The notes under the pieces are model-generated. The model saw nothing but the letters and a program-made list of their open reading frames with translations, searched no databases and was not told where the DNA came from. Of a stretch of DNA of 64,000 nt, positions 43,811-50,449 are shown piece by piece. The DNA lies in the NCBI GenBank assembly GCA_015709715.1, contig CP054184.1, positions 1,721,001 through 1,785,000 of the forward strand, read 5' to 3'. Made by a program: the position numbers and the translations under genes. The stretch comes from Nitrospira sp. (GTDB lineage Bacteria > Nitrospirota > Nitrospiria > Nitrospirales > Nitrospiraceae). Within the stretch, counting starts at the first letter, position 1. Each line of letters opens with the position of its first letter.

Positions 43811-45013
43811 CTACAGCTCTCCCCGGAAGGCGCGGTGTTGGAGAGAGGCGAATGCATCATCGAACCTTGATAGCGAATTGCGCTGTGCTGCTCCTACAAG
43901 GTCGATCTCGGCGAGACGCGTCGCAAACCGTCGCTGCAACTCTACGGGTGGAAGCAGGAGCGGAAAGCTTCGAAGCTGGGTCATATTGATGGTGGCTATG
44001 CCTGTGGTTTGCTTCGCAGAACGAAGAAAATATCGTTTCCCCCGCGTGCTACCGATAAGCCACTCAAGAAAGGTAGGCTCGACCGCGTCAGACGTGAGCC
44101 GGACACGGAAGACATGGTTCTGATGAATGCATTCTGGCAACTCGTTGTCCCAAAGCGTGCCGCGGCCGAGTTTGTCGGGATCTCCTCCCTCAGTAAGCAA
44201 CAGATCACCCTTCTGTAGACGATACCGCCTGATCTCTTCCTCCGTAGCCTCGATCGTTTTTACCGTCGCGAGATTGAGCGCTCGGTCCTGGACATTGATT
44301 ACGGCAAGATACGGCACTACCCGCGTCGTCTTTCCGTTGAGCTGCCGACCCTTGGTGATTCCTGAGACAATGTCGGCGACTTCCCCCAGGCAGGCGATCT
44401 CTGACCACCCCTTTGGATTCGTGGCTGGGTCGCCAAACATGTCGAGGAAAATAGACTGGGTAAGGCGGTCGAGCTTGGCGAGGGCGGCGCGGCGTTTGCG
44501 TCGCAGTTCGTCTGCCTTGTCTAGGATCGCCGCAATCCGCCGCTGCTCGAGAAGCGGCGGGAGAGGAAGTCGAAGATTCGCCAGAAAGTGCTCCGGGACT
44601 CTGCGCTGACCAGCGCTGCCAGTCATCTTCCGTTCACCGTCCTTCCGAACGCGTTCCTGCCTTAAAAAATGCACGAGGTAGCGCGGGTCGAGATCATTGA
44701 CGTGCGGTCGAATGACGTGAAACTCGGTGGACCCGAAGCCAAATCGACGCGTAGGCTTCGCCTGCGCAATCTTTCCATTTTCAAAGCAGGGCGTGATCTT
44801 CGCGACCAATACATCGTCGAAGATAAAAGGCGTGTAGCCCTTGCTCACCTCGTTGAACAGTCGAGTCTCACCGTCAACCGCCTCAACTTCTTCAGCATCG
44901 ACCGCTGACATTGGAAGGAATGAGACGACTTCGTCCGTTGCGGGTACCGCGCTTAGTGGTGGATTGATAGCCGCCACGTCCTGAAGCCGAGCCAGCGGTT
45001 TGGCCGTCTTCAT
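43811..45013 (-). CDS. hsdS: Type I restriction-modification specificity subunit
   Basis: The protein has 400 residues with two target-recognition domains, about 1-160 and 190-375. Each is followed by a conserved helical spacer: PPLLEQRRIAAILDKADELRRKRRAALAKLDRL after the first and PPVELQRRFATRLAEID after the second. The two domains read the two halves of a bipartite DNA site. The start overlaps the hsdM stop (ATGA), so expression is coupled. The recognition sequence cannot be predicted from this alone. Confidence 0.94.
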   Translation of the reverse strand: MKTAKPLARLQDVAAINPPLSAVPATDEVVSFLPMSAVDAEEVEAVDGETRLFNEVSKGYTPFIFDDVLVAKITPCFENGKIAQAKPTRRFGFGSTEFHVIRPHVNDLDPRYLVHFLRQERVRKDGERKMTGSAGQRRVPEHFLANLRLPLPPLLEQRRIAAILDKADELRRKRRAALAKLDRLTQSIFLDMFGDPATNPKGWSEIACLGEVADIVSGITKGRQLNGKTTRVVPYLAVINVQDRALNLATVKTIEATEEEIRRYRLQKGDLLLTEGGDPDKLGRGTLWDNELPECIHQNHVFRVRLTSDAVEPTFLEWLIGSTRGKRYFLRSAKQTTGIATINMTQLRSFPLLLPPVELQRRFATRLAEIDLVGAAQRNSLSRFDDAFASLQHRAFRGEL

Positions 45014-46563
45014 CCCAGCATCCCCTCCAGCTCCTTCATCCCCCGCTGAATTTCTTCTTCCAGTTTCGCCAGCTCGGCCAGGATCTCTTTCGGCGGGCGG
45101 TGTTCGACGACCTCGTGCACCACTTCCTTGTAGCGGTTGAGTGACAAGTCGTAACCCTGCGCGGCGATGTCGGCCTTGCGCACGCAGAAACTCTGTGCGG
45201 TGCGCTCTCGCGCTCGTTCGCTACCTGAGCGCTTGACCCAGCGCGCGAGTACGTCGGGCAGGTTGTTCTTCGCGTGCTCGTCGGCGGCGAGGGGTATCGT
45301 GGGCACTGGCCCAAGCTTGTCCTCTGACAGGAGCGGCGTGCGCTTGTCGTCCAGGCTCCAGCCGTCGGCCTCCACATCGTAGAACCAGACGAAGTCGGTG
45401 CCGCCGGAGTTGGTCTTGGTAAAGACGAGGATGGCGGTCGAGACGCCTGCATAGGGCTTGAACACTCCGCCGGGCAGCTTGATCACGGCGTCGAGCTTCT
45501 GGTCTTCCACGAGGATGCGGCGCAGCTCCTTGTGCGCCTTGCTGGAGCCGAACAACACGCCGTCCGGCACGATGACGGCGGCGCGTCCACCGGGTTTGAG
45601 CAGCCGTAAAAAGAGCGCGAGGAAAAGCAACTCGGTTTTCTTGGTCTTGACGATTTGGAGCAGATCCTTGGCCGTATTCTCGTAGTCGAGGCTGCCGGCG
45701 AAGGGCGGATTCGCCAGCACCAGCGTGTACCGCTCCTCTTCACCCGCGTGGTCCTGCGCGAGCGAATCGCGGTAGCGGATGTCGGGGTTTTCCACGCCAT
45801 GCAGCAGCATGTTCATGCTGCCGATGCGCAACATCGTATTGTCGAAGTCGAACCCGTGGAACATCTTGTGATGGAAGTGCTCTCGTTGCTTCGCGTCGCG
45901 CAAGAGTTTTGGATGCCGCGCTCGCAGGTACTCTCCCGCCGCCACCAGAAAACCGGCCGTCCCGCAGGCCGGGTCGCAGATCACGTCGGTGGGCTGCGGC
46001 GCGGTCAGCTCGACCATGAGCCGGATGATGTGACGCGGCGTACGGAACTGGCCGTTCTGCCCGGCGCTGGCGATCTTGGCCAGCATGTACTCGTACACAT
46101 CGCCTTTGGTGTCGCGCTCTTCCATGGGGACGTGGTCAAGCAGGTCCACCACCTTCGCCAGCAGCGCCGGCGTGGGAATGGTGAAGCGCGCGTCCTTCAT
46201 ATGGTGCGCGTAGGTGGAATCGCCGGTGCCGAGCTGGCGTGCGAGATCGGAGCGGAGGTAGGGAAAAAGATGTTCTCCGACCAGGCTGTACATGTCAGCC
46301 GGCGCACAGTGCTTGAAGCGCGACCAGCGGTAGTCTTCGTAGGAACGGCCCTTCCCATCCTTCCCTGTTGGGAAGATGCGCCGGGCCATCGGCTGCTTCA
46401 GCCGGTTCGCCTTGTTTTCTTCCAGTGTATGGAGATCGTCGAGACGGCGGATGAACAGCAGGTAGGTGATCTGCTCGATCACCTCCAGCGGGTTTGAAAT
46501 GCCGCCTGACCAGAACGAGTCCCAAATACGATCGATTTGGCTCTTGATGTCGCCCGTGATCAT
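45010..46563 (-). CDS. hsdM: Type I restriction-modification DNA methyltransferase subunit
   Basis: The protein has 517 residues. The N-terminal helical HsdM_N domain (SQIDRIWDSFWSGGISNPLEV) precedes an N6-adenine methylase domain with the SAM loop VICDPACGTAGFLVAAGEYL and the catalytic motif LVLANPPFAGSL. A C-terminal helical tail should bind HsdS. It protects host DNA and forms the M2S core. The ATG at 46563 has no clear ribosome site, and a TATTCT hexamer on this strand lies about 10 bp upstream, so the message may be almost leaderless. Confidence 0.95.
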   Translation of the reverse strand: MITGDIKSQIDRIWDSFWSGGISNPLEVIEQITYLLFIRRLDDLHTLEENKANRLKQPMARRIFPTGKDGKGRSYEDYRWSRFKHCAPADMYSLVGEHLFPYLRSDLARQLGTGDSTYAHHMKDARFTIPTPALLAKVVDLLDHVPMEERDTKGDVYEYMLAKIASAGQNGQFRTPRHIIRLMVELTAPQPTDVICDPACGTAGFLVAAGEYLRARHPKLLRDAKQREHFHHKMFHGFDFDNTMLRIGSMNMLLHGVENPDIRYRDSLAQDHAGEEERYTLVLANPPFAGSLDYENTAKDLLQIVKTKKTELLFLALFLRLLKPGGRAAVIVPDGVLFGSSKAHKELRRILVEDQKLDAVIKLPGGVFKPYAGVSTAILVFTKTNSGGTDFVWFYDVEADGWSLDDKRTPLLSEDKLGPVPTIPLAADEHAKNNLPDVLARWVKRSGSERARERTAQSFCVRKADIAAQGYDLSLNRYKEVVHEVVEHRPPKEILAELAKLEEEIQRGMKELEGMLG

Positions 46564-49579: not shown

Positions 49580-50449
49580 ATGAAGAACGGGTTTTTTCGC
49601 GGGCATGGGCTGGGCAACGACTACGTGGTCATGGACCCCACGGAGCTGACCTTCAAACTCACCCCCGGGAAAATCCGCGGCATCTGCGATCGCCATTGGG
49701 GCCTCGGCAGCGACGGCATCCTGGCCCTGGTCCCGTCGAAGAAGGCCGACTTCGGCCTGCGCATTTACAATCCCGACGGCAGCGAAGCCGAAAAGTCCGG
49801 CAACGGCCTGCGGATCTTCGCGCGGTATCTCCATGCGACCGGCAAGACGAAGAAGAAACAGTTCACTGTCGAGACCAAGGGCGGCCTCGTCTCGATCACC
49901 CTGCATGTCGATCGCCACGGCGACGCCTCGGCGGCCACCGTGGAAATGGGCCAAGCGACCTTCCGACCAGCGGCGCTGCCCTGCACCCTGTCCGTCGAGG
50001 AACTCATCCAGGCGCCGATCGAAGCGGTGGGCCGCTCACTCCAGTTCACGGGCGTCAGCGTGGGCAATCCCCATTGCGTGCTGTTCAAGCCCACGGGCCA
50101 GACCTGGAGCCGGGAGGACCTGCTGACCCTGGGACCGGCCTTGGAGAACCATTCCCTCTTCCCCAAACGCACCAACGTGCAGCTCGCCGTACCGACCGGC
50201 CCCAAGGAAATCTACATCCTCATTTGGGAACGGGGCGCGGGAGAAACACAGGCCTCGGGGTCGTCCTCCTGCGCGGCGGCCAGCGCCGCCGTGAAACTGG
50301 GACTCGTCAAGAGTCCGGTGACGGTAAAAATGCCCGGCGGGATCTTGAACATCGACGTGGCTGCCGACTTCAGCCTCACGATGAAGGGTCCTGTGGCGGA
50401 AGTGGCGCGCGGCTCGCTGAGTCCCTCGTTCGTGCGTACGCTCAAGTAA
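49580..50449 (+). CDS. dapF: Diaminopimelate epimerase (DapF) homologue lacking both catalytic cysteines
   Basis: The protein has 289 residues from the ATG at 49580, which follows AAAAGGAGT. It has both halves of the DapF fold: FFRGHGLGNDYVVMD, RIYNPDGSEAEKSGNG and VSVGNPHCVLF in the first part, and WERGAGETQASGSSSCAA in the second. In true DapF the acid/base pair is Cys in NG(A/L)RCFAR and Cys in GETxACGxGxC. Here the first is Ile79 (NGLRIFARY) and the second is Ser226 (QASGSSSC). A normal two-base epimerisation is therefore not expected. It may catalyse another isomerisation, as PrpF and PhzF do on the same fold, or be inactive. Confidence 0.85.
   Translation: MKNGFFRGHGLGNDYVVMDPTELTFKLTPGKIRGICDRHWGLGSDGILALVPSKKADFGLRIYNPDGSEAEKSGNGLRIFARYLHATGKTKKKQFTVETKGGLVSITLHVDRHGDASAATVEMGQATFRPAALPCTLSVEELIQAPIEAVGRSLQFTGVSVGNPHCVLFKPTGQTWSREDLLTLGPALENHSLFPKRTNVQLAVPTGPKEIYILIWERGAGETQASGSSSCAAASAAVKLGLVKSPVTVKMPGGILNIDVAADFSLTMKGPVAEVARGSLSPSFVRTLK

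Follow-up and report, generated by a model that had tools for sequence, protein, structure and literature searches.

A natural Nitrospira DapF homologue with serines in place of both catalytic cysteines, probably the organism's only DAP epimerase

The DapF homologue encoded at positions 49580-50449 of the window (the whole stretch of DNA analysed, 64,000 nucleotides of Nitrospira sp. contig CP054184.1) carries serine at both positions where the family has its catalytic cysteines, and it is probably this organism's only DAP epimerase, a protein of DapF fold that would work with Ser73 and Ser226 as its acid/base pair instead of Cys73 and Cys217. Judged by its sequence, the protein is a DapF by homology, yet it lacks the cysteine pair expected of the family, and standard models give such proteins the name DapF with no check on what stands at the catalytic positions. 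How cofactor-free amino-acid epimerases remove a proton with a pKa near 29 is explained in textbooks by the Cys/Cys thiolate-thiol pair; DapF is the model enzyme for this pair as well as an antibacterial target, and Nitrospira are globally important nitrifiers. No natural DapF with serine at the catalytic sites is reported in the open-access literature searched, which likewise held no described precedent for a serine pair doing epimerisation.

The reading frame is open and intact, as the original prediction held, and gives a product of 289 aa; since residues M1-K2-N3 are unvarying among 36 relatives, translation probably begins at the ATG at 49580. The product matches TIGR00652 (DapF) over its full length at 228.5 bits (cut-off 114.65) and PF01678 at 179.2 bits (cut-off 34.7), the latter being its sole Pfam match, so that it falls outside PF05544 (proline racemase superfamily, Ser/Cys type). 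Among solved structures, DapFs come nearest, with about 38% identity, and each of the 20 best PDB matches is a DapF, with E-values down to 2e-23. An AlphaFold2 model built from a shallow alignment was of moderate confidence (pLDDT 67, pTM 0.60), adequate for the fold and not for active-site distances. On the same strand, the neighbouring genes encode a polysaccharide deacetylase, a GNAT acetyltransferase and a glyoxalase-fold (VOC) protein, with uvrC downstream; no lysine-pathway gene is among them, and the remaining pathway genes lie elsewhere on the chromosome. Upstream of this neighbourhood, frames on the minus strand of the window (43811-46563) resemble the specificity and methylation subunits of a type I restriction-modification system, as read by eye from the ORF list.

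The DapF catalytic pair consists of Cys73 (first Cys of the motif QCGNGAR) and Cys217 (first Cys of ACGTGAC) in H. influenzae/E. coli numbering; the E. coli DapF frame used for alignment has one extra Met, and Cys73 is C74 there. Alignment to E. coli and other solved DapFs gave Ser/Ser for the protein described here (Table 1), in agreement with the original prediction that neither catalytic cysteine is present. Of the two positions it had named, Ser226 does align with Cys217; Ile79 lies at no catalytic position, and aligns with the Cys that closes NGARC, the second and non-catalytic one of the motif; all 69 C/C sequences compared have Cys there. Catalytic Cys73 aligns with Ser73. The PROSITE DapF signature N-x-[DN]-[GS]-x-x(4)-C-[GI]-N-[GA]-x-R, in which the first catalytic Cys precedes GN (PMC8225329), is broken here by Ser73 at the place of that Cys, and the second catalytic Cys is likewise missing, with Ser226 in its place. 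For C. glutamicum DapF, residues N15, N74, N85, N159, N194, E212, R213 and T223 have been described as essential, their change to Ala abolishing activity (PMC5296763); these DAP-contact residues correspond to N13, N64, N75, N163, N199, E217, R218 and S228 here, and all are kept, with T223 replaced by Ser228. Several residues are fixed throughout the Ser/Ser clade and seldom seen in Cys/Cys proteins, among them Lys72, Tyr15, Ser44, Leu77, Ile79 and Ser229. All Ser/Ser proteins of Nitrospirota have Lys72, and none of the Cys/Cys proteins compared has it; since the Ser/Ser proteins of Streptomyces and A. vitis carry Met and Arg, respectively, at position 72, a basic neighbour of Ser73 is not universal.

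Table 1. Coordinates of the dapF homologue and its active-site features, in window positions
Feature	Position	Strand	Basis
dapF homologue, Ser/Ser type, 289 aa	49580..50449	+	genome's only PF01678/TIGR00652 gene
First active-site motif NPDGSEAEKSGNGLRIF, residues 64-80; canonical NADGSEVxxCGNGxRCF	49769..49819	+	alignment to solved DapFs and Nitrospirota homologues
Lys72 codon	49793..49795	+	alignment; directly before Ser73
Ser73 codon TCC, in place of catalytic Cys73	49796..49798	+	alignment
Ile79 codon ATC, in place of second, non-catalytic Cys of NGxRC	49814..49816	+	alignment
Second active-site motif ERGAGETQASGSSSCA, residues 217-232; canonical ERGxGETxACGTGxxA	50228..50275	+	alignment to solved DapFs and Nitrospirota homologues
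Ser226 codon TCG, in place of catalytic Cys217	50255..50257	+	alignment

Ser73, Ile79 and Ser226 were present in 80 of the 80 Nitrospira-type loci fetched, in all examined members of the related family f3, and in family f21, from another class of the phylum, so that the conservation of Ile and Ser in relatives, on which the original prediction had set store as a check, holds without exception across the Ser/Ser clade of Nitrospirota. Pairwise dN/dS against relatives was 0.04-0.14, indicating strong purifying selection. The Ser73 codon is TCN in most genes and AGC in 11 of 131, and because both spellings occur within the clade, the serine has been retained across a switch of codon family. Sequencing errors, which had been raised for 49814-49816 and 50255-50257, or a local mutation in one strain, are refuted by this codon pattern and by identical residues in more than 100 loci of independent assemblies, cultured N. 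moscoviensis (L093) and Ca. N. defluvii (L059) included; nothing was found in favour of such an error.

The complete genome, one contig of 4,156,062 bases, was searched for a second copy and for the genes of the lysine/peptidoglycan pathway. No second dapF was found in it with PF01678, the gene described here being the only PF01678/TIGR00652 gene in 4.16 Mb, which gives no support to the suggestion that a true dapF exists elsewhere; same-genus genomes with a TIGR00652 match have exactly one each. DapL is present (TIGR03540, 622 bits, cut-off 593; gene near 1.87 Mb), as are DapA, DapB and LysA, in the order lysA-dapA-dapB near 1.885 Mb, and MurE is of the DAP-adding type (NF001126, 595 bits, DNPR motif). 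Of the two enzymes proposed for look-up, DapL was thus recovered, and the meso-DAP dehydrogenase Ddh (PF16654) was absent from this genome. In some relatives PF16654 gave weak and partial matches, limited to the first 50 or so positions of the model. The acyl DAP route was set aside, there being no DapE above cut-off and DapL being present instead. With Ddh absent, and DapL, DapA, DapB, LysA and a DAP-type MurE present, L,L-DAP must still be epimerised to meso-DAP. DapL yields L,L-DAP, LysA and DAP-type MurE use meso-DAP, and mineral media support the growth of cultured Nitrospira; therefore an epimerase must exist, and the dapF homologue is the only candidate found. The first of the readings originally offered, another lysine/peptidoglycan route together with a paralogue of new chemistry, thus fails as to the route, since no route that avoids DapF is encoded, and survives in altered form as to the chemistry, the protein probably carrying out the same reaction with a serine pair as acid/base in place of a cysteine pair. 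Seven nearly complete Nitrospirota genomes (G056, G106, G172, G182, G187, G257 and G267) were without a TIGR00652 match, which reflects either an assembly gap or loss of DapF.

The same survey bears on two further explanations. In the first, the protein would be a catalytically dead pseudoenzyme with a structural or regulatory role, as might be thought from the loss of both textbook catalytic residues and from E. coli DapF, which doubles as a partner of RppH (PMC4227774). This is highly improbable, as the lysine/meso-DAP pathway would be left without an epimerase, the replacing residue is specifically Ser at both sites, and the whole protein is strongly constrained. In the second, it would be both a DAP epimerase and a glutamate racemase, an arrangement described for Chlamydia trachomatis DapF (PMC5885031). 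An Asp/Glu racemase-family (MurI-type) gene was sought with PF01177 and gave no match in the complete genome, despite the presence of MurC, MurD, MurE, MurF and Ddl; however, the protein scored 52.7 bits against a cut-off of 350 on the bifunctional DapF/glutamate racemase model (NF038284), and a D-amino acid transaminase or a MurL-type epimerase could supply D-glutamate; such a double role is quite unlikely.

The reading that we favour is that the Ser/Ser protein would convert DapL-made L,L-DAP to the meso-DAP used by LysA and MurE. Ser73 and Ser226 would flank the alpha-carbon and alternate as base and acid: one serine would remove the alpha-proton on its own face, and its partner would give a proton back on the opposite face. 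There is a serious objection from chemistry. Cysteine is favoured over serine in this role, the pKa of Ser being much higher and Cys being more easily desolvated (PMC8142540). In PddB, engineered single Cys-to-Ser changes leave less than 0.1% activity, and Cys-to-Ser forms of Mt-DapF and other racemases with faint residual activity are described in the same paper (PMC8225329). Because engineered mutants keep so little activity, a Ser/Ser enzyme would need compensation, and clade-specific neighbours, namely Lys72 next to Ser73, Ser44 and the ASGSSS turn, may tune the serines, with Lys72 as a possible activator of Ser73. The activity on DAP is inferred from the pathway around the gene and from its being the sole copy, and the role of the serines as acid/base pair and their tuning by neighbouring changes are proposed. 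Slow growth of Nitrospira could also put up with a slow enzyme.

For the history of the family, a maximum-likelihood tree was computed from 96 proteins with both catalytic columns removed, and DapFs were typed by which residue stands at each catalytic position; outside Nitrospirota, the search covered plasmid and viral collections. Ser/Ser proteins form a single clade on this tree (support 98/96). Ser/Cys arises at two places in a Nitrospirota branch of canonical enzymes, in families f1 (L015, L016, L161-L163 and L201, with an AGC codon) and f9 (L238, L241 and L243, with a TCC codon), and well supported branches force two separate changes. Cys/Ser occupies one place, with three contigs of the viral collection. 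The tree thus shows at least four replacements of a catalytic Cys by serine, one giving Ser/Ser, two Ser/Cys and one Cys/Ser. Family f1 has Ser/Cys in some genera and Ser/Ser in others; in the same order, families f2 and f4 are Cys/Cys. There are genomes scored 98-100% complete in which a Ser/Cys or a Ser/Ser copy is the sole DapF, the Ser/Cys gene being so in G102, G151 and G214 (genomes scored up to 100% complete), and Nitrospira and its relatives keep the Ser/Ser gene with no Cys/Cys copy.

More than one copy per genome was seen in a few cases. Two genomes of family f18, G066 (L176/L177) and G075 (L178/L179), each have two dapF genes, one Cys/Cys and one Ser/Ser, the latter adjoining rpe-like and LON-domain-like genes, and this coexistence allows a different role for the Ser/Ser protein in these two genomes. 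Tandem Ser/Ser gene copies lie in G195 (C22:829946-832121, L225), and two Ser/Ser copies in G085 (L233, L249).

Scanning with the Ser/Ser alignment found no Ser/Ser relatives in viral contigs. A scan of the viral collection with a mixed DapF alignment gave five contigs, of which three, the IMG/VR contigs with L263, L264 and L265, encode Cys/Ser DapFs with an ASGSxSC motif. In L263, dapF is followed by an mtaB-like gene, which suggests bacterial flanking DNA, presumably of Rhodobacterales, and all three contigs are likely bacterial DNA at a prophage edge. Among plasmids, Ser/Ser DapF-like genes that belong to the Ser/Ser clade were found in Streptomyces sp. NBC_01216 (L274) and Agrobacterium vitis (L275). 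Both lie in biosynthetic-type operons of one kind, with genes for an iron-containing redox enzyme, a 2OG-Fe dioxygenase, a molybdopterin oxidoreductase and an aldo/keto reductase, a gene content that would perhaps fit a specialised metabolite with an epimerised amino acid.

These operons, with their oxygenase, oxidoreductase and aldo/keto reductase, point to other substrates, and together with the joint occurrence of Ser/Ser and Cys/Cys types in G066 and G075, the near-dead state of Cys-to-Ser mutants, and the fact that a Ser/Thr member of a related superfamily is a dehydratase, they speak for an explanation in which the Ser/Ser protein binds a DAP-like amino acid for another function, such as an elimination or some different epimerisation, and DAP is epimerised in Nitrospira by an enzyme of some other family, so far unrecognised. 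We consider this unlikely for the Nitrospira protein. Its genome has no other DapF-family gene, no Ddh and no Asp/Glu racemase-family gene, and a single alanine racemase; the sole further candidate of DapF fold seen, L258, is a weak match to Pro_racemase (PF05544), the only one in the genome, and reads by eye from its sequence as a PhzF-like protein. All DAP-contact residues are kept, with the one change of Thr to Ser, and Nitrospira and relatives keep the Ser/Ser gene and have no Cys/Cys copy.

A wider proposal appears somewhat favoured, namely that DAP epimerases can run on a Ser/Ser pair, that replacement of the thiol pair, at least four times, has given working Ser/Ser, Ser/Cys and Cys/Ser enzymes, and that local changes such as Lys72 enable a serine to remove the alpha-proton of an amino acid with no cofactor. 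If true, a natural, essential-looking Ser/Ser enzyme would mean that the thiol pair is not required, such proteins would be ready-made enzymes for learning what tunes a base of this kind, and resistance to thiol-directed DapF inhibitors would be expected.

Compared with canonical DapF (TIGR00652, PF01678; H. influenzae, E. coli, C. glutamicum), the protein is alike in whole-length homology, fold, DAP-contact residues and place in the pathway, and differs in Ser for Cys73 and Cys217, Ile for the Cys of NGxRC, and Lys72 before the first catalytic position. The engineered H. influenzae DapF forms C73S and C217S (PDB 2q9h, 2q9j) share the fold and have Ser at the same two positions, but those are single laboratory mutants made for structural work, whereas both serines here are natural and occur together in the sole copy. 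The Chlamydia bifunctional DapF/glutamate racemase (NF038284, PMC5885031) is of the same family, and the present protein lies far below the cut-off of its model (52.7 vs 350 bits). Outside the DapF family, the proline racemase superfamily contains a Ser/Thr trans-3-hydroxyproline dehydratase that catalyses elimination, not epimerisation (PMC4113996); it too has no Cys at either position, but it differs in this reaction, in the non-catalytic orientation of its Thr, and in substrate and family. The same superfamily contains a natural Ser/Cys 4-hydroxyproline epimerase of known crystal structure (PMC4113996), which resembles the protein described here in its related two-domain fold and its natural Ser at the first acid/base position while still being an epimerase, and differs in having Cys as second residue, another substrate and another sequence family. 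By analogy, this enzyme offers a precedent for serine as a competent acid/base in a related fold.
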